Shown one piece after another: positions 1 through 12,655 of a stretch of 13,122 bases of DNA; the first letter of the stretch is position 1, and each line of letters begins with the position of its first letter. Made by a program: the position numbers and the translations under genes. Location: NCBI GenBank assembly GCA_945870545.1, contig CAMBTF010000015.1, positions 1 through 13,122 on the forward strand. The letters are read 5' to 3'. The notes below the pieces were generated by a model. It ran no database searches. It saw only the letters and a program-made list of their open reading frames with translations, and was not told the DNA's origin. The stretch is from Akkermansia muciniphila (GTDB taxonomy: Bacteria; Verrucomicrobiota; Verrucomicrobiia; Verrucomicrobiales; Akkermansiaceae).

Positions 1-587
1 CCCTTGAAATTCACGTAGTCGATGAGGGCGTAGGTGCCCTGCGGCGAGGTGGAGACCTTGCGGTAGTTTTCGTGGATTTTCGCGCGTTCGGAGGTGGGCG
101 CGGCGGCGAGCATTTTCGGCAGGGCGGCGCGGGAGCGGGCGATGATGAAATCCGTTTGCACTCCCACGGTGGAGGCCAGCCATTTCCGCAGGCCGCTCAT
201 TTCCGCCGAGTTGAACTGGCGCTGGAACTCGGCGCGCGAATTCCATGGTGCGTCGGCGCGTTTCGCGATGGCGGGGGGGGTGGCTCCGTTACTTTCCGCG
301 TAGGTGATGAAATCGGGCCACGATTCCTTGAAGGGGCCGTTGAAGTCGGCGGGATACCAGATAAAATGGCCGATGCCGAGCGAGGGGAATTCCTCGCCGA
401 CGTTCCATGCGGTGAGTCCCTCCGCGGTGCCGCCGGATTCGTTCTGCCAGATTTTCCTTCCGATCGAGGTTTTTTGCGCGGCGGTGAGGTGGGTGGCGGG
501 CGCGGCGTTTCCTGCGGCGGGAGGGTTGCCGGGGGCGCAGGCGGTGAGCAGCGCGGCGAGGAGGATAGCGGGGCGGAAAGTTTTCAT
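1..587 (-). CDS. Lysozyme-like lipoprotein, 3' end outside window
   Basis: Open reading frame read leftwards from ATG at 587-585. It has 195 codons and no stop before the window edge, so the C-terminus is missing. The N-terminus is a lipoprotein signal: positive start MKTFR, hydrophobic core, lipobox LTAC with Cys17. After a Pro/Ala-rich linker the mature part carries KIWQNESGG (residues 45-53), then GLTAWNVGEEF (57-67) and SLGIGHFIW (69-77). The order Glu50 ... Leu/Asn/Gly ... Gly-Ile-Gly-His74 resembles the catalytic region of phage T4-type lysozymes (Glu, then TIGxGH about 20 residues later). I therefore suggest, as inference only, a lysozyme-like fold and an envelope location. A short Trp/Phe-rich segment and a helical tail follow. 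The gene is divergent from the membrane-protein gene at 925. The coding frame is clear; the function is uncertain. Confidence 0.8.
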   Translation of the reverse strand, partial: MKTFRPAILLAALLTACAPGNPPAAGNAAPATHLTAAQKTSIGRKIWQNESGGTAEGLTAWNVGEEFPSLGIGHFIWYPADFNGPFKESWPDFITYAESNGATPPAIAKRADAPWNSRAEFQRQFNSAEMSGLRKWLASTVGVQTDFIIARSRAALPKMLAAAPTSERAKIHENYRKVSTSPQGTYALIDYVNFK

Positions 588-650
588 GTTGCAGGGAGCG
601 TATCGGAGTGCGGCGGAACGCCAATCCAGAAAACGGCGCGCGGAAGATCC

Positions 651-680
651 AACCACGAATGACACGAATTTTCACGAATG
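651..680. repeat. Short direct repeat CACGAAT x3
   Basis: The heptamer CACGAAT occurs at 654-660, 663-669 and 673-679, a spacing of 9 and 10 bases (about one helical turn). From memory, clusters of this form are scattered in intergenic regions of Verrucomicrobiota and related genomes. I know no assigned function or family name. Confidence 0.7.
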
Positions 681-689
681 GGAAAATTG

Positions 690-821
690 AACCGCAGATG
701 GACGCAGATGAACGCTGATAAGAAGATCACACCCAGTGCTGGGGATTAAAAAAGTCAGTTTTGAAGACAAATTTTACGGGGGTTCTCTTCCATCTGCGTG
801 TATCTGCGTCCATCTGTGGTT
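690..821. repeat. Inverted repeat made of 10-bp-periodic GCAGATG units
   Basis: The left arm (690-720) contains GCAGAT at 694-699 and 704-709, then the variant GCTGAT at 714-719. The right arm (790-821) is its inverted copy, with ATCTGCG or ATCTGTG units again 10 bases apart. The arms pair over about 30 bases with a few mismatches and enclose roughly 70 bases of AT-richer sequence. The layout fits a small non-coding dispersed element or a protein-binding array. The window contains no other copy that I noticed. Confidence 0.75.
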
Positions 822-924
822 AGATTTCTTACTATTCGTCCGCAGATAAGTTGACCTCCTTAATGAGGGTTTGGGCTTTCATGATGCGGAATCTATGTGT
901 TTGCTACCACCGAAATTTTTCCCC

Positions 925-1701
925 ATGACGACTGAAGAGAAAAAACCCAGCCCGGCACAGGAGCATCCGCTCGCGAATATCCTGATCAACGTGCTCATCC
1001 CCGTGCTGGCGTTGAGTTACCTGAGCAAGGATCCTGCGATGCAGGACGAGGCGAAGCTCTGGCACATCGGTCCGCTCAAGGCGCTGTTCGTGGCGCTGGC
1101 TTTCCCTATCGGTTACGGCGTGTGGTTTTTCGTGAAGACGCGGAAGATGAATTTCTTCTCAAGCCTTGGATTCTTTTCCGTGCTCCTGACGGGTGGACTG
1201 ACGCTTTTCCTCTGGAACAAAGACGGCACGGTAAAGGAACACGCGGCGGTCCTTTTCGGTCTCAAGGAGGCGTCGATCCCCTTCGTCCTCGGCATCGCGA
1301 TCATCGCGTCGCATTGGTCGAAAACTCCGTTACTGCGGACGTTCCTTTACAACGACACGGTCTTCGACATCCCGAAGATCGAGAAAAAAGTGGGCGAGCT
1401 GGGCAGGGAAGCGGACTACCGCAAGGTGATTCTCAACGCCACCATTCTCTTCGCCGTATCGTTTTTTCTTAGTATGCTGATGAACTTCGGGATGGCGATG
1501 TGGTTCCTCGGTGATCTCAATCACGCGGCGACGGATGCACGCGAGGTTTACAACGAAAAGGTGGCGCAGATCACCGGCTGGGGTTTCTTAGTGATCGGCG
1601 TGCCTGTCATGGTGTTCCTTTTCATCACCCTAAAGAAGCTACTCAGTGGCTTGAGGGAAATCACCGGCCTCACGGACGACGATCTGATGATGCCGCGCTG
1701 A
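925..1701 (+). CDS. VC0807-like multi-pass membrane protein
   Basis: 258-residue integral membrane protein. Hydrophobic segments lie near residues 18-33, 49-70, 77-97, 113-130, 168-195 and 217-238, giving about six passes with a short charged N-terminus. The features NFFSSLGFFSVLLTGG (76-91), a Lys-Glu-Ala loop before the fourth helix (114-116), FFLSMLMNFGMAM (180-192) and a C-terminal TGLTDDD match what I recall of the VC0807 family, whose function is unknown. The frame is open upstream to a TTG at 871, but the ATG at 925 gives a normal charged N-terminus and is preferred; no clear ribosome binding site is seen. The stop lies one base from the stop of the convergent dehydratase gene, so there is no room for a separate terminator. 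Family assignment is moderate; the membrane nature is certain. Confidence 0.8.
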   Translation: MTTEEKKPSPAQEHPLANILINVLIPVLALSYLSKDPAMQDEAKLWHIGPLKALFVALAFPIGYGVWFFVKTRKMNFFSSLGFFSVLLTGGLTLFLWNKDGTVKEHAAVLFGLKEASIPFVLGIAIIASHWSKTPLLRTFLYNDTVFDIPKIEKKVGELGREADYRKVILNATILFAVSFFLSMLMNFGMAMWFLGDLNHAATDAREVYNEKVAQITGWGFLVIGVPVMVFLFITLKKLLSGLREITGLTDDDLMMPR

Positions 1702-1702
1702 C

Positions 1703-1987
1703 TCAATCGACGAGGTTGTCGATGCGCTGCGCGAGCTGGATGTCGAGTGCGGTGACGCCTCCGACATCGTGGGTCGTCAGCTTGAGCGTGACCTTGGTGT
1801 GCTTGATCGTGATGTCGGGATGGTGCTGTGCCTCCTCGGAGATCTCGCCCACGTCGTTGACGAAATCGATCCCTTCCATGAATTCCTCGAACTCGATGGT
1901 GCGGGTGATGTGCTTTTTCTCGTATTCCCACTCAGGGCATTTCTTGAGTGCGGAGGTGAGTTCTTCTTCTTCTAATAATTCGGACAT
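1703..1987 (-). CDS. phhB: Pterin-4a-carbinolamine dehydratase
   Basis: 94-residue protein of the PCD/DCoH family, which dehydrates 4a-hydroxytetrahydrobiopterin and so recycles the pterin cofactor of aromatic amino acid hydroxylases. The signature is intact: QHHPDI (54-59) with the paired active-site histidines 55 and 56, LTTHDVGGVTALD (70-82) with His73 and Asp82, and a closing LAQRID. The length is typical. The ATG at 1987-1985 gives the usual short N-terminus; the frame stays open further upstream without family-like sequence. No phenylalanine hydroxylase gene is in the window, so the partner enzyme is unknown. In many bacteria this gene stands alone, and other roles have been proposed. 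It converges on the membrane-protein gene with a 1-bp gap and is divergent from the lipoprotein gene at 2153. Confidence 0.93.
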   Translation of the reverse strand: MSELLEEEELTSALKKCPEWEYEKKHITRTIEFEEFMEGIDFVNDVGEISEEAQHHPDITIKHTKVTLKLTTHDVGGVTALDIQLAQRIDNLVD

Positions 1988-2152
1988 GTAAGGGTGCTGG
2001 ATGGTTCGTTGAAACGTTCGGACGAAGATTGGAGGCACGCTTTCCGAGTTGGCAAGCCCGTCTTTAATGTTTTGTGAAAAATCATTTCCGCGCTCACGGC
2101 ATGGAGGAGGATGCGGTTTGCATACCGCCGCTCGCCGTGCGAAGCTTCGGGC

Positions 2153-2593
2153 ATGAAACAATCCCTCGTGTATCTGTTTTCGGTTTCCTTATGCCTCCTT
2201 ACCCTTTCATGCGCGCCATCGACGCCGGCGGCGCGCATTGCCGAGAAGCCGCTGGCCTTCGAGAAGCTCAGCGATGAGCACAAGGAGCTGGTGCAGCGCG
2301 GAGAGATCGGGAAAGGGATGGATATGTCGGCTGTGGCGCTGGCTTGGGGGAATCCATCGAGCAGGATGGAGGGCTTCAGCGGAAAGGGGCGGACTGAGCG
2401 CTGGGAATACATCGGCACGCAACCTGTGATGACGAACACGTTTTACGACAGCTACCGATACGACCGCATCCATCCGCACGGTTATTCGCGCGCAGGTGGC
2501 TACTACGGGACGGAAATCGTCTATGTCCCATACCGCAAAAGCACCGTATGGTTCATCGGCGGAAAAGTGACCGAATGGGAGCGCCTGAAATAA
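2153..2593 (+). CDS. Small lipoprotein with BamE/SmpA-like repeat
   Basis: 146 residues. The N-terminus is a signal peptide (MKQSL, hydrophobic to residue 19) ending in LTLSC, so Cys20 is a probable lipidation site, although Thr at -3 is not the classical lipobox. Residues 50-67 (GEIGKGMDMSAVALAWGN, then Pro) follow the short pattern of BamE/SmpA-like domains, G-hydrophobic-x-x-G-M-x(4)-V-x(3)-W-G-x-P. A predicted beta segment ERWEY comes next, and the C-terminal half is rich in Tyr, Arg and Gly with WFIGGKVTEWERL at the end. This suggests a small envelope protein; the partner is unknown. A start at 2111 is possible but would place a charged stretch before the signal peptide, so 2153 is preferred. 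It lies 61 bases before the L,D-transpeptidase on the same strand, so cotranscription is possible. Confidence 0.8.
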   Translation: MKQSLVYLFSVSLCLLTLSCAPSTPAARIAEKPLAFEKLSDEHKELVQRGEIGKGMDMSAVALAWGNPSSRMEGFSGKGRTERWEYIGTQPVMTNTFYDSYRYDRIHPHGYSRAGGYYGTEIVYVPYRKSTVWFIGGKVTEWERLK

Positions 2594-2654
2594 CCGGGAG
2601 TTTTCCGGAAACGGATTCTTGCCGTCCACCGCGGGGTGCCGCTGAATCGAAGCC

Positions 2655-3338
2655 GTGAACGCGAAAACAGTATTGGCCGTATTGCTGGGAGCGGTGGTCG
2701 TGGTGGCATCTTCCTCCTGCTCGATGAGGGCGAAGAGGGGCGGAGGACTGGAGGCCTACCAGGCTTACGACCGCCCGGCCAAGCGGCCGCAAAACCCGTC
2801 GGAGGTGAGTGTCAAGGTATCGCTCAGCAAGCAGCGGGCCTACGTGATGGAGGACGGGAAAATGCTGATGGTGATGCCCGTTTCCGTGGGCAGGCAGGAT
2901 ACGCCGACACCCACCGGCACATTCAGGATTTCCAGGAAAGAGCACAAGCACCGGGACCATGCCCGCGGCTACGCTTACAGGGGGAAGCAGGTGCGGAAAT
3001 GCGGCATCGAAAACAAGCCCTCCGGCTGGTCGTTCAAGGGCGCGCCGATGCCCTACTGGAGCGAGTTCAAGCCGTCCTACGGGTTCCACACCGGCTGGGT
3101 GCGGCATTCCCCGTGCACCACCGACGGATGCATCAGGATGCACGAGAACCTCGCGCCCAAGTTTTTCCACATGGTTTCCATCGGCACGCCGGTGAACATC
3201 GACTACGCGCAGCCGGAGGACGCGCGATGGTCTTACATCCCCCTGCCCCCGGATGCGGGGCCGCTGCCCGATCACCCATATCCGATGTATCTGGGCAACG
3301 GCTATTTCACGCGGCACAAGACGCCGGAGTTTGACTGA
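2655..3338 (+). CDS. L,D-transpeptidase (YkuD family), probable lipoprotein
   Basis: 227 residues from a GTG start. An N-terminal hydrophobic segment (4-21) ends in SSSC, so Cys22 may be lipidated. The YkuD domain spans about 50-182: VSVKVSLSKQRAYVMEDG (51-68) is the typical opening, PVSVGRQDTPTPTGTF (75-90) is the conserved Thr-Pro-x-Gly turn, and the active site is GFHTGW with His145, then TTDGCIRMHE with Cys159 and Arg161, closing with GTPVNI. Such enzymes cross-link peptidoglycan stem peptides (3-3 links) or attach lipoproteins to the wall, acting in the periplasm. The usual SHGC motif reads TDGC here, with Asp157 at the His position. The next in-frame ATG falls after the signal peptide, which supports the GTG start. 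The C-terminal 45 residues are Pro-rich and family-unspecific. Confidence 0.9.
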   Translation: MNAKTVLAVLLGAVVVVASSSCSMRAKRGGGLEAYQAYDRPAKRPQNPSEVSVKVSLSKQRAYVMEDGKMLMVMPVSVGRQDTPTPTGTFRISRKEHKHRDHARGYAYRGKQVRKCGIENKPSGWSFKGAPMPYWSEFKPSYGFHTGWVRHSPCTTDGCIRMHENLAPKFFHMVSIGTPVNIDYAQPEDARWSYIPLPPDAGPLPDHPYPMYLGNGYFTRHKTPEFD

Positions 3339-3400
3339 CTCCTCCTCCGTGTCGGAAAGCGCTTGCATCGCGGGGCGAAAGACTGCCTTGTCCTTCGGCT

Positions 3401-4273
3401 ATGAGTAAATTTTCCGGAATCCTGACGCATCCGGGCAGCGCCCATAAGGACGAGTTCCTCGCGTGCTGCCTGCTGGTCGCCGTCCACGAAGCGCCGATTT
3501 TCCGGCGAGAACCCACGCAGGCGGATCTCGACAATCCGGCGCTGGCCGTCGTCGATGTCGGCGGCGAGGACGATGCCGCGCGCGGGAATTTCGACCACCA
3601 TCAGTTCCCCAAGGATCACCCGCCGGTTTGCTCGCTGAGCCTGGTGCTGATGGCTCAAGGGCTGTATGGGGATGCGAAGCTCTACTGCGATTGGCTGGAG
3701 GTGGCGGAGTGGTTCGATACCCGCGGGCCGGTGGAAACGGCGGCGTGGCTCGGTGTGGAGCGGACGCTGCTGGCGAAGCTGAATTCCACTGTGGATCTGA
3801 CGCTGTTGAGGCGTTTCGCCGGAATGTCGGAAATCCGCGCCGGCGAGCCAATGTGGGAAGTGATGCGCTGGGTCGGTGGGGACCTGATCGGCTACCTGAG
3901 ATCGCTGCGGGAAAAGCTCAATGAGATCGCACGGCTGAGTGAGATCTGGGAAATGAGCCATGAGGCAGGGGATTTCCGGGTGCTGTTCCTGCCCCGGGCG
4001 GAAAATTTCTCGGAGGACGCTTCGGCGGGCTTGGCGCGCTATGCATCGGGATTGCCGGAGGAAAAGCAGGTGATTGCGATGGTTTACCCCGACCGGCGCG
4101 GTGCGGGCTTCGCGCTGTCCCGCTACAACGACGATCTCGGGATGGATTTCGCGCGCATTTCCGGGGAGCCCGATGTCCATTTTGCGCATGCCCGCGGCTT
4201 CGTGGCCAAGACCAGCGCCACCGATCTCGCGCGGATCCGGGGCTTGCTGGCGAAGAGCCGCGTGGCGCGTTGA
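3401..4273 (+). CDS. MYG1 family protein (DHH-like phosphohydrolase fold)
   Basis: 290 residues. Two metal-site motifs identify the MYG1 (UPF0160) family: THPGSAHKDEFLAC (9-22), matching the family THxGxxHxDE pattern, and VVDVGGEDD (50-58) followed by NFDHHQF (63-69), matching DVGG...DHHQ. These His and Asp residues correspond to the metal ligands of DHH-type phosphoesterases. The eukaryotic relative MYG1 is reported to be a 3'-5' RNA exonuclease; bacterial members are uncharacterised, so nuclease activity here is inference. The C-terminal half (about 170-290) has the family's mixed pattern, including VIAMVYPDRRG (206-216) and a GFVAKT segment. The length is slightly shorter than that of eukaryotic proteins. 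It stands alone, 62 bases after the transpeptidase stop and 141 bases before pyrD. Confidence 0.85.
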   Translation: MSKFSGILTHPGSAHKDEFLACCLLVAVHEAPIFRREPTQADLDNPALAVVDVGGEDDAARGNFDHHQFPKDHPPVCSLSLVLMAQGLYGDAKLYCDWLEVAEWFDTRGPVETAAWLGVERTLLAKLNSTVDLTLLRRFAGMSEIRAGEPMWEVMRWVGGDLIGYLRSLREKLNEIARLSEIWEMSHEAGDFRVLFLPRAENFSEDASAGLARYASGLPEEKQVIAMVYPDRRGAGFALSRYNDDLGMDFARISGEPDVHFAHARGFVAKTSATDLARIRGLLAKSRVAR

Positions 4274-4306
4274 AGCTCCCGCATCCTCCTTGATTGAAGC
4301 ACCCTG

Positions 4307-4332
4307 CCGCCGCAGGTTTTCGGCTGCGGTGG
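4307..4332 (+). terminator. Possible hairpin after the MYG1-like gene
   Basis: CCGCCGCAG at 4307-4315 pairs with CTGCGGTGG at 4324-4332 over nine bases with one G-T pair, around an 8-base loop. It lies 34 bases after the MYG1-like stop. No T-run follows (the next bases are CCATTAAT), so it is at best a weak or factor-dependent terminator, or a 5' leader structure of pyrD. Confidence 0.3.
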
Positions 4333-4414
4333 CCATTAATCTAAAAGATCACACTTGGCGGAACGGGAGTGATTCAGGATTTGCAGATTCACCGCATTCG
4401 GCCAGCATCGCCGC

Positions 4415-5434
4415 GTGCTTGCTGCCGCCTATCCTATCGCCCGGAAAATTTTGTTCTCGCTGGATGCCGAAACCGCCCACCACGCCAGCATGGCGGGGCT
4501 GCGTTTCGCGGAGAAAACGGGGTTGCTCAAAGCCCTTTCCGAACCCCTTCCCCAGGGCAAGCCTGTGGAGCTGATGGGCCTGAAGTTTCCGAACCGCATC
4601 GGCCTCGCGGCGGGGCTCGACAAGGAGGGCAACACCATCGATGCGCTCGGGCGGCTCGGCTTTGGCTTCATCGAGATCGGCACGATCACGCCGCGTCCGC
4701 AGGCGGGGAATCCCAAGCCTCGCCTGTTCCGGCTCATCCCCCAGGAGGCAATCATCAACCGCATGGGCTTCAACAACCCTGGCATCGACGCGGGCGTCGC
4801 CAACGTCCGCGCCCACAAGTCCTTCACCGGCCCCATCGGTTTCAACATCGGGAAAAACAAGGACACCCCGAATGAGAATGCGGCCGACGATTACCTCGCC
4901 TGCCTAGAAAAAGCCTATCCGGTGGCGGATTACATCGCGGTGAACCTTTCCTCTCCGAACACCCCCGGTCTCCGCGATCTGCAGGCCGCCGACTCCTCCG
5001 CGCGGCTGTTGGAGACCTTGAAAAAATCGCAGGAAAACCTCGCCGCCCGCCATGGGAAACGCGTGCCCATCCTCTTTAAGGTCGCGCCCGATCTGACTGA
5101 CGAGCAGGTAGCGGATCTCGCCGCCGCATTTCTCCACGGCGGCCTCGAAGGACTGATCGCCACGAACACCACGCTGGATCGTGAGCTTGTGAAGGATCAC
5201 CCGTGGGCGAACGAGGCGGGCGGGCTTTCGGGGAAACCCGTCTTCGAGAAATCGAACCACGTCCTCGCCGCGTTCGCATCCGCCTTTTCCGGGAAAATCC
5301 CGATTATCGGTGTCGGCGGCGTTTCCTCGAAGGCGGATGCGGAGGAGAAATTCAAGGCAGGAGCGGATCTGGTGCAGATCTACACGTCCTTCGTTTATCA
5401 GGGCCCCGCGCTGGTGAGGGAACTCGTTTGCTGA
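4415..5434 (+). CDS. pyrD: Dihydroorotate dehydrogenase, class 2 (quinone-dependent)
   Basis: 339-residue flavoprotein oxidising dihydroorotate to orotate in pyrimidine synthesis, passing electrons to membrane quinone. It is class 2: an N-terminal extension (1-50, with YPIARKILFSLDAETAHH) forms the quinone-side helices, and the catalytic base is Ser180 in NLSSPNTPGLRDLQ (177-190). Other landmarks are GLAAGLDKEG (63-72) for FMN, GFGFIEIGTITPRPQAGNP (82-100), NRMGFNN (115-121), FKVAPDL (221-227), TNTT (250-253) and IIGVGGVSSKADAE (297-310) with AGADLVQIYT (315-324). The GTG at 4415 matches the start of family members, and no ATG is available earlier in the protein. It is followed two bases after the stop by a strong hairpin terminator. 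No other pyrimidine gene is adjacent. Confidence 0.97.
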   Translation: MLAAAYPIARKILFSLDAETAHHASMAGLRFAEKTGLLKALSEPLPQGKPVELMGLKFPNRIGLAAGLDKEGNTIDALGRLGFGFIEIGTITPRPQAGNPKPRLFRLIPQEAIINRMGFNNPGIDAGVANVRAHKSFTGPIGFNIGKNKDTPNENAADDYLACLEKAYPVADYIAVNLSSPNTPGLRDLQAADSSARLLETLKKSQENLAARHGKRVPILFKVAPDLTDEQVADLAAAFLHGGLEGLIATNTTLDRELVKDHPWANEAGGLSGKPVFEKSNHVLAAFASAFSGKIPIIGVGGVSSKADAEEKFKAGADLVQIYTSFVYQGPALVRELVC

Positions 5435-5435
5435 T

Positions 5436-5511
5436 GGAGAGCCGTGCCTTTGGCCGGCTTCTTTCGTAGTCGTTGCAAAAGCCGGCCAAAGGCACGGCTC
5501 TCCTTTATTTT
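5436..5511 (+). terminator. Perfect 25-bp hairpin terminator after pyrD
   Basis: The left arm 5436-5460 is an exact inverted copy of the right arm 5479-5503, with an 18-base loop between them. TTTATTTT follows at 5504-5511, giving a U-tract for transcripts coming from pyrD. The arms fill nearly the whole gap between the two convergent stops (5434 and 5505), and the U-tract overlaps the last codons of the ferredoxin gene. On the opposite strand no T-run follows, so it is less ideal for that gene. The perfect long arms suggest a dispersed palindromic repeat recruited as a terminator. Confidence 0.85.
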
Positions 5512-5810
5512 CCGATGCGGAAATCCTCCACCGGCACGCCTCCGACAAGGTGACCGGTGATGATCCTTTCCAGCACTTCCGGTGTGCAGGAGTGATACCA
5601 GACGCCTTCCGGATACACGACCGCCACCGGCCCCTTCATGCAGACCCGCAGGCAATCCGCCTTCGTGCGCAGGATGACCTTTTCGCCCTTTCCCGCGAGG
5701 CCGAGTTCCTTGAGCCGGCGTTTCAGGAACTCCCATGAACGCGCGCCCTCGGCGGGATCGCAGCATTTTGCCTCGGTCGGCTGGGCGCAGAGAAAGATGT
5801 GCCGTTCCAT
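5505..5810 (-). CDS. Thioredoxin-like [2Fe-2S] ferredoxin
   Basis: 101 residues from the ATG at 5810-5808. The start [10 protein letters not shown] is the typical N-terminus of stand-alone thioredoxin-fold [2Fe-2S] ferredoxins, followed by KCCDPAEG (15-22), [19 protein letters not shown] (51-69), VWYHSC and a closing helix [11 protein letters not shown]. Cys8, Cys16 or 17, Cys53 and Cys57 are the likely cluster ligands. Proteins of this family are soluble electron carriers or subunit-like modules related to the NuoE and hydrogenase 24-kDa domain; the partner here is unknown. An in-frame ATG at 5858 would add [17 protein letters not shown] prefer 5810 because the family starts there and GGATAGG lies directly in front of it, but the longer form cannot be excluded. 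It is divergent from the M23 peptidase and convergent with pyrD. Confidence 0.88.
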
Positions 5811-5933
5811 CCTATCCAAATTCAGTGCGGCGACGCTTTTCTCCAATTCCACATCCATGCCCGGAAAGTTTGACCTGCCATCGGAAAACTGAACACTGAA
5901 AACATCCACCGCCCGCACCCCGTATCCCATCCC

Positions 5934-6731
5934 GTGAAAGCCGCCCGCCTGCTCATTACTCTCGTCCTCGCCGCCGGGATCGTCGGCTATGCGGTGTGGC
6001 GGAGTTCGCGGACGGCCGCGCCGGAGGAGAAGCTGGTCGGCTTCCAGGATTCGGATGCGCCCTTCGCGATGCCCGAGAGCGGCCAGCCCGACATGCGTTT
6101 CCATTTCCTCTCCGCCTGGCAGGCGAACCAAGTCCCGACGGCCAGCCGCATGGACACGCCGATGGGTTCGGAAAACGGCGCGCTCGTTTACAACGCCCAG
6201 AAATTCTGGGAAATGAACCAGAAGCGCGGCGGCCACCACACCGGGGACGATCTCAACGGCATCGGCGGCATGAACACGGATCTCGGTGATCCCGTTTTTG
6301 CGGCGGGCGACGGCCTGGTGGTCTATGCGGGTGAGCCTTCGCCGGGCTGGGGAAAAATCGTCGTGCTCGCCCACCGTGATCCGGCGGGGAAACCCGTGCA
6401 CACGATGTATGCCCACCTCGACGAGATTAAAACTACGCTCAACACCCTCGTTGCGCGCGGCGGAGTGATCGGCACCGTCGGCACGGGCAACGGATCTTAT
6501 CCCGCCCACCTCCACTTCGAGACGCGCTCCTCGGACGGCGCGGACATCGGCGCGGGCTACACCGCCCAGCCCCTCAACCGCCTCGATCCCGCTGCCGTCG
6601 TCGCCGCCCTGCACGATGCCTCCGAGAAAGGGATTTTAGCCGCACCGCTGAACCTCGCCGACAAGGACGACGCGCCCTGGACGAAACTGGAAATGAAGAA
6701 CGCGGAGAAATTTTCGGAGCTGAAGGAGTGA
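5934..6731 (+). CDS. M23 family metallopeptidase (LytM-like), membrane-anchored
   Basis: 265 residues from a GTG start. A single hydrophobic segment (about 5-22) with no cleavage motif suggests an inner-membrane anchor with the rest in the periplasm. The LytM/lysostaphin-type zinc motifs are intact: [13 protein letters not shown] (100-112), with His102 and Asp106 as the H-x3-D ligands; MYAHLDE (158-164) with His161; and AHLHFETR (191-198) with the H-x-H pair 192 and 194. [16 protein letters not shown] (119-134) is the usual beta-hairpin. The spacer between the anchor and the catalytic domain is only about 70 residues and shows no coiled coil. Enzymes of this fold cut peptidoglycan cross-links; some are degenerate regulators, but here all ligands are present. 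The C-terminal 50 residues after the domain are charged and of unknown role. The upstream gap is shared with the divergent ferredoxin gene. Confidence 0.92.
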
Positions 6732-6735
6732 GAAG

Positions 6736-6917
6736 CTTGGACTGCTACAGCCTGCTGTAGCTTTCGGCCATGCAGCCTGCTGCGAGCCGCACGGCATTGG
6801 CATCTTGCTGCGCGATCCCTCCCAGTCCTCCGCCGTGGACAGCCCAGCCTTTGCTGAAGCTATGGCGGGCAGGCAGGCTGTCACACGGAAAGCTACAGCA
6901 GGCTGTAGCAGTCCAAG
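6736..6917. repeat. 182-bp palindromic element with perfect 30-bp inverted ends (REP/BIME-like)
   Basis: Positions 6736-6765 and 6888-6917 are exact inverted copies of each other. Each arm contains GCTACAGCCTGCTGTAGC (or its complement), itself an 8+2+8 hairpin, so the element is a pair of facing REP-like hairpins. Inside are partial copies of the same core (CAGCCTGCTG at about 6774) and a nested inverted repeat, GACAGCC at 6838-6844 with GGCTGTC at 6876-6882. It fills the gap between two convergent genes (stops at 6731 and 6921) and has no credible reading frame of its own. No transposase is present, so any movement would need help in trans. It may also act as a two-way transcription stop. 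Confidence 0.8.
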
Positions 6918-6920
6918 GCC

Positions 6921-8441
6921 TCAAACCCCCGTTACAATCTCCACGGCGGGCAGCGCTTTCTTGATCTCCGCGATGGCTTCCGGCGTGACCGCCGTTTGCC
7001 AGAGATAGAGGCGCTTCAGGTTAGGGAGGGCAGTGAGTTTCTTCACGCCCGCGTCGGTGACCTTGGTGCCGTAGAGGTTCACGGATTCGAGTTTCGTGAG
7101 CTTTGCGAGCGTGTCCATCGAGGCGTCGGTGATACCGGTTTCGGAAAGGCGCACCATGCGCAGATTCGTGGCGGTGGCGAGCTTGGCGATGGACGCGTCC
7201 GTCACCGAAGTGGCGGAAAGATCGACCGTGACCATCTTCGGGATCACGGGGGAGAGTTTCGCGAAAAGCTCGTCGGTGAGGTTTTTCCGCAGGGAAACGC
7301 CGGTGAAGGTGAGGTTTGCGGAGGATTGCGACTCGAAGCTCAGGCCGCCGGGGAAATCGGCGCTGAGTTTACTGACCGTGGCGCGGAGATCGTCCGACGG
7401 CAGGTCGGAGACCTCTTCTGCCACGGCCACTTCGCTCGCACCGATGCCTAGATCCAGTTTACCAATCGCCGCGCGGATCTCTTCGGTCAGCTTCAGCTCG
7501 CCGACTTTTTTCGCGGGATCTGCCCCTTCGTTGATCCACCATTTCACGATCGCGAGCTCGTGTTCCTCGATGTCCTTTTTGCCCTCGGGCGGCATGTGTT
7601 CCTCGTCGTCCATCGGCAGTTCGGGGCGAATGACAATGTTGCTGTCCTCGGCGCTGCCCGGCTCGATGGCTGAGCCTTCCTTGCCGCCTTTCACGAGCAT
7701 CTCGAAGGTGTCCATCCGCAGCTTGCCCTTGGATTTGCCTTCCTTGTGGCACTCCACGCAACGCTTGTTGAGGATGGGCTGGACGATGTCCGCATAGACG
7801 ACCTGCTCCTCCAGCGGCTTGGCGGGGATTTCTTTTTCCTCCACCTTAGGCTCCAGGCCGAGGGCTTTACGGATCGGGTTCGGGGCGTATTCGGTGAGGT
7901 AATCGGGGCCGTGGGTGATGGAGGCGCCGTCGTGGCTGGCATAGCCCATGACACCGACGCTACCGAAAAGCAGGATGCGGTAGAACGCCTGCGAGGCGGT
8001 CGGCGCGAGGCTCCACGCTTTCACGATCAGCGTGAGAACCGCGGCGCAGGCAAAGCCTAGCCCGCCCCAGAGGTGATCCTCGACCAACTCGCCCTCGAAG
8101 CCGCCGCCTTGGTAAAGCAGGAAACCGGCGATCACCGCCGCCACCGCGCTGGCCGCGCCGAAGAAGATCGGCAGGATGCCGCGTTGCGGTTTCTCCTTGG
8201 AAAACATCCCCAGCAACTCTTGGAGCAGGATCAGCGAGAAAATCCCGATGGGAAGGTGCAGGATGACGGGATGGAAACGACCGAGGAAACGCACGATGTC
8301 CGGCATTTTTTCCCCATCCGGTTCACCGGCGAGAAAGGGCATAGCGATCATGCCGCCGATAGTGAGCAGGCCGGTGAGAGTCAGGAACCATGGTAGTCCT
8401 TTTCCGGCGGGCTGGGTGTCGAGGTCGATTTCTTTGGACAT
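6921..8441 (-). CDS. DUF2231 membrane domain, Planctomycete-type cytochrome c and leucine-rich repeats
   Basis: 506 residues in three parts. Residues 15-168 form a membrane domain of the DUF2231 type, with about four or five hydrophobic segments and the hallmark FHPVILHLPIG (56-66). Residues 210-310 are a c-type cytochrome domain of the Planctomycete kind: IVQPILNKRCVECHKEG contains the single haem site C228-V-E-C231-H232, Met283 in HMPPEG is the likely sixth ligand, and WWINEGADP closes the domain. Residues 360-506 hold leucine-rich repeats of about 23 residues (VTDASIAKLATATNLRMVRL and similar). The haem domain must face the periplasm, anchored by the membrane part. Family knowledge: such multi-domain cytochromes are frequent in Verrucomicrobiota and Planctomycetota; electron partners are unknown. 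An electron-transfer or sensing role is inference. No cytochrome maturation gene is in the window. Confidence 0.88.
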   Translation of the reverse strand: MSKEIDLDTQPAGKGLPWFLTLTGLLTIGGMIAMPFLAGEPDGEKMPDIVRFLGRFHPVILHLPIGIFSLILLQELLGMFSKEKPQRGILPIFFGAASAVAAVIAGFLLYQGGGFEGELVEDHLWGGLGFACAAVLTLIVKAWSLAPTASQAFYRILLFGSVGVMGYASHDGASITHGPDYLTEYAPNPIRKALGLEPKVEEKEIPAKPLEEQVVYADIVQPILNKRCVECHKEGKSKGKLRMDTFEMLVKGGKEGSAIEPGSAEDSNIVIRPELPMDDEEHMPPEGKKDIEEHELAIVKWWINEGADPAKKVGELKLTEEIRAAIGKLDLGIGASEVAVAEEVSDLPSDDLRATVSKLSADFPGGLSFESQSSANLTFTGVSLRKNLTDELFAKLSPVIPKMVTVDLSATSVTDASIAKLATATNLRMVRLSETGITDASMDTLAKLTKLESVNLYGTKVTDAGVKKLTALPNLKRLYLWQTAVTPEAIAEIKKALPAVEIVTGV

Positions 8442-8471
8442 GTTGGTGATGGGGGTGCAGGGGCAAGGTTC

Positions 8472-8723
8472 TCAAACGTCGATCGTGACATCTTTCTTAC
8501 CCGCCGGGCGGGGAGCTGTATTGGATTTGCCTTTTTTTCCGATGAAGGGCAACCATTTCCTAAGGTCATAACCTAGGTATGAGGTGCATTTCAGGAAAAA
8601 GCCGAGGGCGACGACTTCATCGATGAACGGCAGCGGATCCATCACCGGGAAAGGCAATGGCCCAATGATGAGTAGATACAATCCCGAGAGAATCGCTCCG
8701 ATCCATGCGAGTTTCCGTTTCAT
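8472..8723 (-). CDS. Small DUF1232/YkvA-like membrane protein
   Basis: 83 residues. One hydrophobic segment (7-27) runs into LPFPVMDPLPFIDEVVALGFFL (23-44), in which the Pro-Asp-Pro-x-Pro-x-Ile-Asp-Glu arrangement resembles the DUF1232 (YkvA) hairpin, and a basic Lys/Arg-rich tail follows. The family function is unknown. The gene lies 30 bases upstream of the cytochrome gene on the same strand and may be cotranscribed with it. The ATG at 8723-8721 is the natural start, and the codon pattern looks genuine. Family assignment is tentative. Confidence 0.65.
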   Translation of the reverse strand: MKRKLAWIGAILSGLYLLIIGPLPFPVMDPLPFIDEVVALGFFLKCTSYLGYDLRKWLPFIGKKGKSNTAPRPAGKKDVTIDV

Positions 8724-8809
8724 AAACGCATTCTATTACGGATCTCAGCAGATACAACTTTCAGGGTTTCGCTTGATTCGTCCCCGCCGCCCGCTGAAGC
8801 TCCGCCGCC

Positions 8810-9142
8810 ATGGATCCATTCATTCTGAAAACCCTCCACCTCGCCGGTGTCTTCGCCCTTTTTTCCTCGCTCGGTGCCACCATGCTGGCGGGTTCGAAAG
8901 GCAAATCCGCCTCCATGCTGCATGGCATTTCGCTTGTCCTGATCCTGCTGATCGGTTTCGCGATGCTGGAGAAGCCGCCGATGGACCAGCAGTGGTGGAT
9001 GGTGAAGCTCGGCCTCTGGCTCTTCATCGGCGTGGCTCCCGTCCTCGCGAAGCGTAAATTACTGGCTCCGTGGATGGTCTTCGCGCTTTGCCTCGTAGCC
9101 GCCACCGCCGCCGCCTACCTCGGGCTGCGCAAGCCGTTCTGA
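8810..9142 (+). CDS. Small four-helix integral membrane protein
   Basis: 110 residues with hydrophobic segments near 8-27, 37-53, 65-80 and 86-105. Histidines sit in or at the edge of the first two helices (LHLAGVF with His10; LHGISL with His38), and a Lys-Leu-Gly-Leu-Trp stretch opens the third. That layout resembles small SirB/CopD-like or haem-binding membrane proteins, but I do not recognise a specific family. The ATG gives a short N-terminus that leads straight into helix one. It is divergent from the DUF1232-like gene across an 86-base gap, and 159 bases precede the next gene on the same strand. It may belong functionally with the cytochrome, but nothing proves this. Confidence 0.7.
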   Translation: MDPFILKTLHLAGVFALFSSLGATMLAGSKGKSASMLHGISLVLILLIGFAMLEKPPMDQQWWMVKLGLWLFIGVAPVLAKRKLLAPWMVFALCLVAATAAAYLGLRKPF

Positions 9143-9253: not shown

Positions 9254-9269
9254 TGGCGCGGGGGATGCT
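9254..9269 (+). promoter_or_regulatory. Candidate sigma-54 (-24/-12) promoter
   Basis: The sequence TGGCGCGGGGGATGCT matches the sigma-54 consensus (TGGCACG, four bases, TTGCW) at all but two fixed positions. The essential GG (9255-9256) and GC (9267-9268) are exactly ten bases apart. Initiation would fall near 9280, about 20 bases before the ATG at 9302. The G-rich spacer makes a chance match possible, and no activator gene is in the window. Confidence 0.35.
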
Positions 9270-9301: not shown

Positions 9302-10729
9302 ATGTTCGAAGGCTACACGGCGGATAAATTTTACGATGAGATGTTCTCCCCCGACGGGAAAGTCAGGAAACATTGCGAGCCCCTGCACCGGAAGTTTCAG
9401 CAGCTCGGGAACAAGGAATTCCTTTCCCGGAAAGCGACCAGCGAGCTGTATTTCATGCGGCAGGGGATCACGTTCAACGTTTATCACGACAACCGCGGCT
9501 CGGAGCGCATCTTCCCGTTCGATCCCGTCCCGCGCGTGATCCCGGCGGAGGAGTGGACTCACCTAGAGGCGGGTTTGACTCAGCGGATCCTCGCTCTCAA
9601 CCTTTTCCTTCACGACGTCTATCACGACCAAAATATCCTCAAGGACGAGGTCATCCCGCGCCATTACATCGAGAACGCGAAGCATTTCCGCAAGGAATTC
9701 CGCGGGGTGGATGTGCCGAAGGACATCTACATCCACATCTGCGGCAGCGACCTGATCCGCGGCGGCGACGGCACCTACTACGTGCTCGAGGACAACGGCC
9801 GCTGCCCCTCCGGCGCGTCCTACCTGCTGGAGAACCGCAATGCCTTGAAGCGGGCTTTCCCCTCGCTCTTCGACTCCGTCGGCGTGCGTCCGGTCGATTC
9901 CTATCCGCGCGATCTGCTCAACATGCTCCACCACATCTCCCCGCGCCGCGAGGGCGAGCCGGTGTGTGTGCTGCTGACGCCCGGCTGCTACAACAGCGCC
10001 TATTTCGAGCACTGCTACCTCGCCCGGAAAATGGGCATCGAGATCGTGGAGGGCCGCGACCTGGTGGTGATCGACCGCTTCGTTTACATGCGGACGACGA
10101 AAGGGCTGGTGCGCGTGGACGTGATCTACCGCCGCATCGACGATGATTTCATCGATCCCGTGGTCTTCCGGAAAGACTCGGTGCTGGGCGTGCCCGGCCT
10201 GATGAACGCCTACAAGGCGGGCAACGTCGCGCTGGCAAACGCCGTCGGCACGGGTGTGGCGGATGACAAGGTGATCTATTATTTTGTGCCACGCATGATC
10301 GAGTATTACCTCGGCCAGAAGCCCATCCTGCCGAACGTGCCGACCTTCCTCGCCTCCGAGGAAGCGGACTACAAACACATCATGGCGCACCTCCCCGAGC
10401 TGGTGGTGAAAGCGGCGAACGAATCCGGCGGCTACGGCATGCTGATGGGCCCGCAGGCGACTTCGGCGGAGATCGAGAAATTCCGCGAGCTCATCCAAGC
10501 GGATCCGCGCAATTACATCGCGCAGCCGGTCGTTTCCCTTTCCCAATCCCCCACCTGGTGCGACGGCGCGATGGACGGCCGCCACCTCGACCTGCGGCCT
10601 TACATCATCTACGGCCAGGACGTGAAAATCGTGCCCGGAGGCTTGACGCGCGTGGCGCTGACGAAAGGCTCGCTGGTCGTGAACTCCTCCCAGGGCGGCG
10701 GCAGCAAGGACACCTGGGTGCTCAAATAA
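9302..10729 (+). CDS. Circularly permuted ATP-grasp protein
   Basis: 475 residues, typical for the family. The N-terminus (MFEGYTADKFYDEMFSPDGK) is characteristic. Landmarks: GITFNVYHDNRGSERIFPFD (55-74), ICGSDLIRGGDGTYYVLEDNGRCPSG (146-171) with Glu163, Asp164 and Asn165, a Tyr-Arg-Arg-Ile-Asp-Asp-Asp segment (276-282), the nucleotide-binding VVKAANESGGYGM (368-380) with Lys370, DLRPYIIYG (430-438), and NSSQGGGSKDTWV (461-473). ATP-grasp enzymes form amide or ester bonds through an acyl phosphate. The permuted branch is placed among amidoligases by domain analysis, but its substrate is unknown. It is the first gene of a three-gene cluster with the alpha-E and transglutaminase-like proteins, and 22 bases (an A8-C-T6 stretch) separate it from the next gene. 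The M. tuberculosis counterpart is Rv2411c. Confidence 0.93.
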   Translation: MFEGYTADKFYDEMFSPDGKVRKHCEPLHRKFQQLGNKEFLSRKATSELYFMRQGITFNVYHDNRGSERIFPFDPVPRVIPAEEWTHLEAGLTQRILALNLFLHDVYHDQNILKDEVIPRHYIENAKHFRKEFRGVDVPKDIYIHICGSDLIRGGDGTYYVLEDNGRCPSGASYLLENRNALKRAFPSLFDSVGVRPVDSYPRDLLNMLHHISPRREGEPVCVLLTPGCYNSAYFEHCYLARKMGIEIVEGRDLVVIDRFVYMRTTKGLVRVDVIYRRIDDDFIDPVVFRKDSVLGVPGLMNAYKAGNVALANAVGTGVADDKVIYYFVPRMIEYYLGQKPILPNVPTFLASEEADYKHIMAHLPELVVKAANESGGYGMLMGPQATSAEIEKFRELIQADPRNYIAQPVVSLSQSPTWCDGAMDGRHLDLRPYIIYGQDVKIVPGGLTRVALTKGSLVVNSSQGGGSKDTWVLK

Positions 10730-10751
10730 AAAAAACTTTTTTACCGAACGA

Positions 10752-11783
10752 ATGCTCTCCCGCGTAGCCAACACACTTTACTGGATGGTTCGTTATGTCG
10801 AACGCGCCGACAACCTCGCGCGCCTCATCGACGTGAACGAGCAGGTACTCCTCGATTTCGAAAGCCTCGATAGCGAGCGGCTGCGGGGATTCTGGAATCC
10901 CATCATCCTGAGCACCGGCGACGAGGAGGCTTTCCATAAGCTTTATGATGATGTCGGCAGCTACCAGGTGATCCGTTTCCTGACCACCGACACTCGCAAC
11001 CCGAACAGCATTGTCTCATGCATCGGATTGGCGCGGGAAAACGCCCGGACGGTGCGCGACCAGCTTTCCGACGACCTGTGGGAGGAGCTGAACTCGCTCT
11101 ACCTTTTCACGAAGTCCGAGGAGTCCGCCCAGCTTCTCGCCAATAACCCGCCGCGCTATTATGAGAGGGTGCGCCGCGCGGCGATGACCTTTCTCGGCAT
11201 CTCTGACTCGACGACGGCGCGGGACGGGCGCTGGGATTTCATGTCGCTCGGACGGCACCTCGAGCGCGCGGACAAGACCACCCGTTTCCTCGATATCTCC
11301 ACCTATTTCCCGAAAGGCGCGGAGGGACTCGAACGCGCCTCGCCGGGCGTGCTGCACTGGTCCGCCATCCTCAGCTCCTGCGGCGCAATGGGTGCTTTCC
11401 GCGCGACGCGGCAGGAAATCACCTCGCGTACGGTGATGGCGTTCCTGCTGTTCTCGCCGGATTTCCCTCGGTCTGTTAGATACTGCATCGATCAGGTGGA
11501 CGCGGCGCTGCACCGCATTTCCGGCACCTCGCGCGGCACCTACTCGAATGAATCCGAGCGCGAATGCGGCATGATGCTCGCCACCCTCAACTTCGGAAAA
11601 CCCGAGGATATCCCCGAGGACGGGCTGCACCTTTTTCTCGATGAGATCCAGGCGAAGCTCAACAAGATCGCCGGGGAGATTTTCGAAACCTATGTGCTGA
11701 TGCCCGAGCGGATCGAATCCAGGGTGCCCGAGATTCCGGCCCTTTCCACGCTCCGGCATATCCAGGAGCTGCCCCAGCAATGA
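10752..11783 (+). CDS. Alpha-E domain protein
   Basis: 343 all-helical residues. The start MLSRVANTLYWMVRYVERADNLARL (1-25) is the signature of the alpha-E family. A second motif of the same type, SLGRHLERADKTTRFLD (165-181), lies mid-protein, and RENARTVRDQLSDDLWEELN (95-114) is another conserved helix. The C-terminal helix is FLDEIQAKLNKIAGEIFETYV. No catalytic residues are known for the family, and its strict genomic pairing with permuted ATP-grasp and transglutaminase-like proteins suggests a scaffold or partner role. It follows the ATP-grasp gene by 22 bases, and its stop overlaps the start of the next gene as ATGA, implying translational coupling. The M. tuberculosis counterpart is Rv2410c. 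Confidence 0.94.
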   Translation: MLSRVANTLYWMVRYVERADNLARLIDVNEQVLLDFESLDSERLRGFWNPIILSTGDEEAFHKLYDDVGSYQVIRFLTTDTRNPNSIVSCIGLARENARTVRDQLSDDLWEELNSLYLFTKSEESAQLLANNPPRYYERVRRAAMTFLGISDSTTARDGRWDFMSLGRHLERADKTTRFLDISTYFPKGAEGLERASPGVLHWSAILSSCGAMGAFRATRQEITSRTVMAFLLFSPDFPRSVRYCIDQVDAALHRISGTSRGTYSNESERECGMMLATLNFGKPEDIPEDGLHLFLDEIQAKLNKIAGEIFETYVLMPERIESRVPEIPALSTLRHIQELPQQ

Positions 11784-12655
11784 CCGGTGAAACCGAAACG
11801 GACTGCGCGGGGATCACGCTCGCGGTCAGGCACCGGACAGTTTTCCGATACGCGGGAGCGGTGCGCAACAGCGTGAATACGCTCCACCTCGAGCCGCGCG
11901 ATTTCCTTTTCCAGAGAACGCTCAGCGCCTTCATCAAGGTCATTCCCGCGACCCGGCTACGGCGCTTCGACGACCTTTTCGGAAACGTGACCCACCACTT
12001 CGAGCTCAGCAGCGAGCACGACCGGTTGGAGATCGAGAGCATGGTGAAAGTCCGCAACCTGCCGCTCCATATCACGAACCGCGGCTACTCGGACGGCATG
12101 GATTGCTATGATGATCCCACGATCCGCGAGCATTGCTGGCAGTATCTCCTGGAAAGCAGGTGGGTCTCCCTGCCGCCGGAGATCTGGAGGCAGGCGCTGG
12201 ATCTGACCATGGCGGAAACAGCGGTGTTCGAGAAAGCGGCGGCGATCATGCGCTGGATTCACGAGGAGTTTACCTACGAGCCGGGGACGACCGATGTGGA
12301 GACGCACCTTGAGCAGGCGTTCGCGTTGCGGAAAGGGGTCTGCCAGGATTTCACCCACGTCATGATCGGCATGTGCCGCGCCATCGGCTTACCCGCGCGC
12401 TACGCTTCCGGTTACATCCTGACGGGTGGGCGTGACTCGTTGGTTGGAGCGCAGGCCTCGCACGCATGGTGTGAGGTATATCTGCCGGAGACAGGCTGGA
12501 TCGGGTTCGACCCGACAAATTCCGTTCTCGCAGACCAACGCTACGTCAAAATCGCGGTGGGTCGGGATTACGGGGATGTTGCGCCGATCCATGGATCATA
12601 CATCGGCAGCGCGGGCTGCCGGATGGAGGTCGAGGTCTTGGTGGAGCGGCTCTGA
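11780..12655 (+). CDS. Transglutaminase-like cysteine protease family protein
   Basis: 291 residues. The N-terminal part (about 12-100) is the beta-rich domain that precedes bacterial transglutaminase-like cores (ITLAVRHRTVFRYAGAV; NTLHLEPRD). The core has the full Cys-His-Asp triad: Cys188 in LRKGVCQDFTHVMIGMCR, His228 in QASHAWCEVYLP, and Asp244 in GWIGFDPTN. Bacterial members mostly hydrolyse or transfer amide bonds, so this protein could trim or transfer the product of the neighbouring ATP-grasp ligase (inference). There is no signal peptide, which points to the cytoplasm. The start ATG overlaps the alpha-E stop by four bases. The M. tuberculosis counterpart is Rv2409c. The next gene has its own candidate promoter, so the operon probably ends here. 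Confidence 0.94.
   Translation: MTGETETDCAGITLAVRHRTVFRYAGAVRNSVNTLHLEPRDFLFQRTLSAFIKVIPATRLRRFDDLFGNVTHHFELSSEHDRLEIESMVKVRNLPLHITNRGYSDGMDCYDDPTIREHCWQYLLESRWVSLPPEIWRQALDLTMAETAVFEKAAAIMRWIHEEFTYEPGTTDVETHLEQAFALRKGVCQDFTHVMIGMCRAIGLPARYASGYILTGGRDSLVGAQASHAWCEVYLPETGWIGFDPTNSVLADQRYVKIAVGRDYGDVAPIHGSYIGSAGCRMEVEVLVERL

Follow-up and report, generated by a model that had tools for sequence, protein, structure and literature searches.

The ATP-grasp/Alpha-E/transglutaminase locus

We analysed a stretch of 13,122 nucleotides (nt) of Akkermansia muciniphila DNA (contig CAMBTF010000015.1, hereafter the window), which stems from a metagenome-assembled genome (MAG) of 1.97 Mb in 317 contigs that is 72% complete. 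On its plus strand the window carries three consecutive genes, here called the trio. The first encodes a ligase with a circularly permuted ATP-grasp domain (CP_ATPgrasp_2; 9302..10729, 475 amino acids (aa)), the second an Alpha-E protein (10752..11783, 343 aa) and the third a transglutaminase-like cysteine enzyme with the domains Bact_transglu_N and Transglut_core (11780..12655, 291 aa). The trio is the ATP-grasp/Alpha-E/transglutaminase part of the known "Anbu operon". A first-pass annotation of the window had proposed these three genes, and open reading frame (ORF) calls and Pfam matches confirmed them.

The ligase matched CP_ATPgrasp_2 (PF14403) with an E value of 2e-163 and 544 bits (cut-off 32) along profile positions 1-374 of 374, and the related CP_ATPgrasp_1 profile was matched as well. 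The Alpha-E protein matched PF04168 (E 3e-88, 297 bits, profile positions 1-293 of 294), while the transglutaminase matched Transglut_core (E 6e-27) and Bact_transglu_N (E 9e-19) and no Pfam domain beyond these two. Searches against NCBIfam gave zero matches for all three proteins (E up to 0.001). By ORF coordinates, the ligase and Alpha-E ORFs are separated by 22 nt, and the Alpha-E stop and transglutaminase start share a 4 nt ATGA overlap (11780..11783, plus strand), through which the two genes may be translationally coupled.

A conserved sigma54 promoter-like box

Upstream of the ligase, the sequence TTGGCGCGGGGGATGCTA holds a box that resembles a sigma54 (-24/-12) promoter, TGGCGC-N5-ATGCT with a T before it (9254..9269, plus strand). 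It begins 48 nt ahead of the ligase start codon and adds a new element to those listed in the first-pass annotation. Scored against the pattern TGGCAC-N5-TTGCW, the box reaches 19.4 of 22.9, a value attained by 1.5% of shuffles of the region. Support for this candidate promoter comes from its conservation more than from the single-site score. The strict form TGGC-N8-TGC was found within 110 nt upstream of the ligase at 20 of 23 Verrucomicrobiales loci (a count that leaves out L007, near-identical to the window; L and G numbers are our handles for loci and genomes), versus 1 of 132 other ORFs. At the same loci it preceded none of the 20 Alpha-E starts and one of the 19 transglutaminase starts. 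In a second sample of 49 genomes, 23 had the strict box 20-75 nt upstream of the ligase versus 3 of 113 other ORFs (Fisher p 2e-11, which is optimistic because the genomes are related). In this sample the box preceded none of 60 Alpha-E starts, one of 44 transglutaminase starts and none of 18 starts of further ligase genes on the same strand.

By family, the strict box was present in 6/6 (f20), 4/4 (f3), 4/4 (f22), 3/3 (f2), 3/3 (f23), 1/1 (f1) and 1/1 (f9) genomes. Two bases outside the selection were also shared: a T precedes the box in 33 of 43 cases (20 of 92 elsewhere), and the 16th base is a T in 38 of 43 (18 of 92 elsewhere). In the wider set of loci, counting those with at least 250 nt of upstream sequence, 15 of the 20 scored Betaproteobacterial ones, several of them near-identical Pandoraea, reached 19.3 of 22.9, as did none of the six Opitutales-like loci. 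We found no report of a promoter of the Verrucomicrobial trio in the literature searched.

Nucleotide site and predicted fold of the ligase

ATP-grasp enzymes rely on a metal-binding motif, a lysine that contacts ATP and a glycine-rich loop. The predicted counterparts in the window ligase are Glu163-Asp164-Asn165 (codons at 9788..9796, plus strand) and the stretch from Lys370 to Gly379 (VVK...SGGYG, 10409..10438, plus strand), so that the EDN motif (163-165) stands ahead of the lysine and glycine loop (370-379) in permuted order. Glu163, Asp164, Asn165, Lys370, Gly376, Gly377 and Gly379 are kept in all 50 stand-alone Verrucomicrobiota ligases (the window ligase and 49 others). A broader comparison covered 34 stand-alone ligases (Verrucomicrobiota, Betaproteobacteria, Firmicutes and a single Bryobacterales locus) and left out the fused paralogue L005; here, too, the seven residues are invariant, save Gly379 in one protein. 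Judging by these conserved residues, the nucleotide site is complete, as the first-pass annotation had held.

The same annotation had named loss of nucleotide-binding residues as an outcome that would refute its proposal. Such loss is absent from the window ligase and present in the fused paralogue of the same MAG, an 816 aa CP_ATPgrasp-Alpha-E protein (L005:920-3370, minus strand) in which Glu163, Asn165, Lys370, Gly376, Gly377 and Gly379 are all replaced. We aligned 21 fused paralogues (18 from other Verrucomicrobiota genomes, one from the MAG and two from Betaproteobacteria; the fragment L163 lacks these columns). Asn165 and Gly379 are absent in all 21, Gly379 once as a gap; some of the proteins retain Glu163 and most retain Lys370. 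With sequences this divergent, the alignment of the loop columns may be faulty. It is unlikely that the fused copies are ordinary ATP-grasp ligases. Within the window's genus, a second Alpha-E match lies mostly in a frame of 823-865 codons, the length expected for ligase-Alpha-E fusions. The MAG also encodes a large transglutaminase-DUF2126 protein, a putative amidoligase, that is cut by a contig end (L087:2746-5320, plus strand).

The closest solved structure to the ligase is 3n6x (E 8.7e-171), a putative glutathionylspermidine synthase of Methylobacillus flagellatus. An AlphaFold2 model of the ligase (predicted local distance difference test (pLDDT) 86, predicted template modelling score (pTM) 0.90) shares its fold with eukaryotic-type glutathione synthetase and glutathionylspermidine synthetase, with RimK distant in the fold-neighbour search. 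Enzymes of the glutathione synthetase group make glutathione-type peptides. The modelled fold points to a ligase that would couple a small peptide, through its C-terminal carboxylate, to an amine. The first-pass annotation had left a wider choice between a peptide tag, a polymer and a modified protein. For the Y. bercovieri homologue of the ligase, phosphate release has been reported (PMC6376114).

The Alpha-E and transglutaminase proteins

Ten Alpha-E residues are invariant in 60 of 60 aligned sequences (R14, E17, R18, S86, R95, R102, W110, N114, E171 and S241); four of these are arginines, and the ER motif E17-R18 is among them. R172 is found in 59 of the 60. The structure model is all-helical (pLDDT 86, pTM 0.84), and no solved relative of Alpha-E was found by sequence. 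The closest solved relative of the transglutaminase is 3isr. Its predicted catalytic residues Cys188 (12341..12343), His228 (12461..12463) and Asp244 (12509..12511; all codons on the plus strand) are the same in all 31 transglutaminases compared, and on this basis the Cys-His-Asp triad is complete, in line with the initial description.

Evidence on possible sigma54 and nitrogen control

We detected rpoN in 28 of 31 genomes of the window's genus and in 190 of the 193 Verrucomicrobiota genomes of a phylum sample (the window's own MAG and 192 genomes with a completeness of 90% or more). As a positive control we used the ammonium-transporter gene amtB, the loci of which bear boxes of the TTGGCACG-N4-TTGCT type in the genus. 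Of the 29 full amtB ORFs, as delimited by script, 14 have the strict box close to their start, and maximal-score boxes lie further upstream of other amtB genes, e.g. at L102, L104, L120 and L124. At L114, L115 and L121, the gene next to amtB encodes a secreted-looking protein (236 aa, L121:3437-4147) and also has a sigma54-like box. Genome G186 (L179:3503-8429) has a second rpoN with two transglutaminase genes beside it, next to the gene of an NtrC-family response regulator with receiver, sigma54-activation and Fis-type domains; transglutaminase and rpoN matches are also adjacent in G189 (L180). NtrC-type sites with at least 10 of 12 matching positions were found at 11 of 23 loci in the set L038-L061, which includes four non-Betaproteobacterial loci (L040, L045, L046 and L058), L040 being among the 11 matches.

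A survey of sigma54 regulons published in 2025 lists the proteasome-type protease COG3484 among Proteobacterial targets, and its main text names no transglutaminase, ATP-grasp, COG2307, COG2308 or COG1305 (PMC12316311). In B. cenocepacia, the trio together with a large transglutaminase-like protein is described as a common target of NtrC and sigma54 (PMC5491218). Nitrogen limitation of wild-type P. putida raised PP_2686-2688 by 11-15 fold, while the Anbu gene PP_2685 changed 1.12 fold (PMC7801951). On nitrate versus ammonium, by contrast, PP_2685 and PP_2688 both rose, by log2 4.44 and 3.99 (PMC8050072). Abundance in metagenomes links the trio domains to urea metabolism (PMC3597751).

A proposed amide conjugation cycle

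Our favoured, though tentative, reading is that the three genes form one operon with a sigma54 promoter, most likely induced by nitrogen shortage, and encode a reversible amide conjugation cycle. Transcription would start at the predicted promoter. Using ATP, the ATP-grasp ligase would activate a small peptide at its C-terminal carboxylate and couple this group to an amine. Alpha-E is the near-constant partner of the ligase, as its neighbour or, in paralogues, as part of a fusion protein; its role is probably to hold the substrate or to dock on the ligase. The transglutaminase-like enzyme would hydrolyse or transfer the same amide bond via Cys188. The net effect would be a cycle like that of the bifunctional glutathionylspermidine synthetase/amidase, built from other families.

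Several results weigh against this reading. The strict box was present in 1 of 11 genomes of family f5 and in 0 of 16 from the nine remaining families, and none of the 26 Firmicutes loci reached the score of 19.3. In the window's own, 72% complete MAG, rpoN was not found, and neither of its two amtB copies has a box (L111; L185 starts too near a contig end). Across the genus, 15 of the 29 script-delimited amtB ORFs are without the strict box. The ligase gave no match to the glutathionylspermidine or glutathione synthetase profiles of Pfam (E up to 0.001), and the fold search with Alpha-E gave no clear match. In a P. putida rpoN mutant the trio was still induced about 14-20 fold, and urt genes were also up 7-17 fold (PMC7801951); sigma54 dependence is therefore not universal, or the mutant is unusual. 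Since Anbu induction by nitrogen shortage has been reported for P. putida as well (PMC8050072; also cited in PMC5666114, PMC6376114 and PMC7801951), despite the 1.12 fold change in the wild type above, the nitrogen response alone cannot separate the trio from Anbu.

Upstream of the Verrucomicrobial trio or amtB, we found no NtrC-type palindromes above chance and no shared dyads. Mean palindrome scores were at or below those of shuffles for both gene sets, and dyads enriched in one set were not enriched in the other. NtrC-type sites with at least 10 of 12 matching positions occurred in 0 of 44 trio and 1 of 16 amtB upstream regions, a search that a differing site sequence would escape. The signal therefore need not be nitrogen. 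Sigma54 might instead serve another signal, such as envelope or other stress, with the nitrogen link as a Proteobacterial speciality. Such control would fit the lack of an NtrC-type site or dyad common to amtB and the trio, the many activators that use sigma54 and the second rpoN and NtrC-family regulator beside two transglutaminase genes in G186. However, amtB of the same genus has the same promoter type, and independent nitrogen-limitation and NtrC data come from Burkholderia and Pseudomonas. We consider control by a signal other than nitrogen improbable.

Distribution, Anbu and gene neighbourhoods

In the phylum sample, Alpha-E is present in 50 of 193 genomes, and CP_ATPgrasp_2 scores above the cut-off in those same 50. 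Bact_transglu_N occurs in the same 50 and in two others (G013 and G115), the proteins of which come without ligase or Alpha-E. All 17 genomes of genus g2 in this sample (2.2-3.3 Mb; perhaps Akkermansia) are without a ligase, Alpha-E or Bact_transglu_N match, yet rpoN is present. By ligase, the nearest relatives in GTDB are MAGs labelled Verrucomicrobiaceae, Prosthecobacter and Akkermansiaceae. By record title, the 80 GTDB loci that we mapped by tblastn are 32 Verrucomicrobiota, 26 Firmicutes, 21 Betaproteobacteria and one Bryobacterales. Species of Haloferula and Luteolibacter are among those with trio loci, and at L020, L022, L025 and L026 the 6 kb around the trio hold no Anbu. A plasmid scan found the ligase in 117 records, 67 of them from Sinorhizobium. 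The trio is widespread, as had been claimed at first pass with reference to Rv2411c-Rv2409c of M. tuberculosis, which we take to be the same trio, and the literature searched holds no defined product for it, likewise as claimed.

Alpha-E lies directly 3' of the ligase on the same strand in 78 of the 80 GTDB loci, and both exceptions break off at or close to the end of a contig. The pair is intact in 48 of another 49 Verrucomicrobiota genomes; it is followed directly by a transglutaminase in 22, by another (fused) ligase in 10 and by Anbu in one, while 15 have no system gene after it within the fetched stretch. These neighbourhood counts indicate that ligase and Alpha-E form the fixed core and that the hydrolase modules, transglutaminase and Anbu, vary in position. 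At the Opitutales-like loci L030, L031, L033, L034 and L084, ligase and Alpha-E occur with no transglutaminase detected by tblastn within the locus; L031 has an AcrB-type efflux gene after the pair.

Anbu was found in 5 of the 193 phylum-sample genomes, all within the trio-bearing 50; in G047 and G052 it adjoins the stand-alone trio. The search profile was built on three Anbu sequences, so a very divergent Anbu might escape it. A sample of the window's family gave Alpha-E in 61 of 145 genomes and Anbu in 3 of 145; one of these three is a fragment in G254, an 86% complete genome in which no Alpha-E match was found. In the window's genus, 21 of 23 sampled genomes have Alpha-E and none of the 23 has Anbu. 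Four single-contig genomes of the genus carry the trio in the same order without Anbu. Anbu is absent from the window, and none was detected in the rest of the incomplete MAG (PF00227 at E up to 1, and the Anbu profile). The suggestion at first pass that the trio may work without Anbu is borne out insofar as it can exist without it.

These counts bear on the protein-tagging proposal of Iyer et al. 2009, as summarised in PMC5666114 and PMC6376114. Under this proposal, proteins would carry a peptide tag that the ligase produces or puts on and that the transglutaminase takes off or passes on, with Anbu as the peptidase in systems that have it. In 17 of the 80 GTDB loci, none of them from Verrucomicrobiota or Firmicutes, Anbu is encoded downstream of the ligase-Alpha-E pair. 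All five Anbu genomes of the phylum sample have the trio, and nitrogen starvation would be a plausible setting for protein turnover. But 45 of the 50 trio genomes are without Anbu, and the G254 fragment comes without an Alpha-E match. A study of the Y. bercovieri system detected neither peptidase activity of Anbu nor a specific interaction of it with other operon proteins (PMC6376114). Moreover, the modelled ligase fold is of the small-peptide-ligase type, distant from RimK, and the flanks held no conserved small tag protein among ORFs of at least 100 codons, a length below which a tag would escape. Taken together, we regard protein tagging as unlikely.

Varied neighbourhoods surround the trio. 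The first-pass annotation had suggested looking for a constant fourth partner, but none emerged from 797 flanking ORFs of at least 100 codons at 25 Verrucomicrobial loci (antisense ORFs were kept, and several loci are cut short on one side): even the commonest flanking families are present at 10 of the 25 loci at most. A succinate-dehydrogenase-type flavoprotein (Pfam on one copy) adjoins the trio in up to 10 loci, and the window's upstream neighbour (region 8810-9142) recurs in 8. Further upstream in the window (1-9142), Pfam and NCBIfam identified YkuD (2655-3338), a MYG1-like protein (3401-4273), pyrD (4415-5434), an M23 peptidase (5934-6731) and a PSCyt1/LRR protein (6921-8441, minus strand). 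We also considered a small-molecule pathway unrelated to stress, with a peptide metabolite, secreted or structural, as the product of the trio. ATP-grasp enzymes of the ligase's fold do make glutathione-type peptides, and the literature searched names no product for the trio; the flanks, however, show no constant fourth gene and differ from locus to locus. We regard such a pathway as very unlikely.

The conjugation cycle favoured above could also be placed in a broader frame, which we regard as rather doubtful. The trio would be an ancient, sigma54-controlled nitrogen-stress system of conjugation and deconjugation common to Verrucomicrobiota and Proteobacteria, in which a glutathionylspermidine-synthetase-like ligase, Alpha-E and a thiol hydrolase store or recycle an amine on a small peptide. 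Anbu would be a later, optional addition, and the fused paralogue in the same genomes, having lost its nucleotide site, a non-catalytic regulator or scaffold.

While the trio itself was known, this analysis adds the sigma54 box, the trio's clean Anbu-free occurrence, a choice of likely chemistry narrowed by the predicted fold, and the degenerate paralogue. The conserved box suggests nitrogen shortage as the growth condition under which to seek the trio product, the predicted fold limits the likely chemistry to the joining of a peptide carboxylate and an amine, and Anbu-free genomes free the study of the trio from a confounding protease. The open question of the product thereby becomes an experiment in culturable Verrucomicrobiales or in P. 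putida.

Comparison with known systems

The Anbu operon of Y. bercovieri, P. putida (PP_2685-2688) and others contains the same families, in many loci in the order ligase, Alpha-E, transglutaminase, and the window ligase is 54-57% identical to those of Betaproteobacterial loci. The window trio differs in that Anbu is not at its locus and was found in none of the 23 sampled genomes of the genus. The B. cenocepacia cluster I35_5080-5083 shares the DUF404/407 (ligase), DUF403 (Alpha-E) and transglutaminase-like genes, there under NtrC and sigma54 control, and has a large transglutaminase-like protein (PMC5491218), whereas the transglutaminase-DUF2126 protein of the window's MAG lies on another contig (L087). 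The Rlo operon of P. aeruginosa likewise combines an ATP-grasp with a transglutaminase-type domain, but its ligase is 24% identical to RimK, its membrane transglutaminase is inactive, it includes an aspartic protease and the main text of its description has 0 occurrences of 'alpha-E' (PMC12239564).

With respect to the ligase, the comparison to Mfla_0391 (3n6x), the putative glutathionylspermidine synthase, is one of structure only. Eukaryotic-type glutathione synthetases (2hgs, 3kal and 5oes) are 10-11% identical to the window ligase, which has no glutathione synthetase Pfam match. The bifunctional glutathionylspermidine synthetase/amidase (2io7-2iob, 3o98) has its synthetase fold in common with the modelled ligase. 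The trio differs from it in having two separate genes plus Alpha-E, a transglutaminase-type cysteine enzyme instead of a fused domain with the glutathionylspermidine amidase fold, and no GSP_synth Pfam match. By analogy, the trio would compare best to a nitrogen-stress pair for amide synthesis and hydrolysis that resembles glutathionylspermidine synthetase/amidase.

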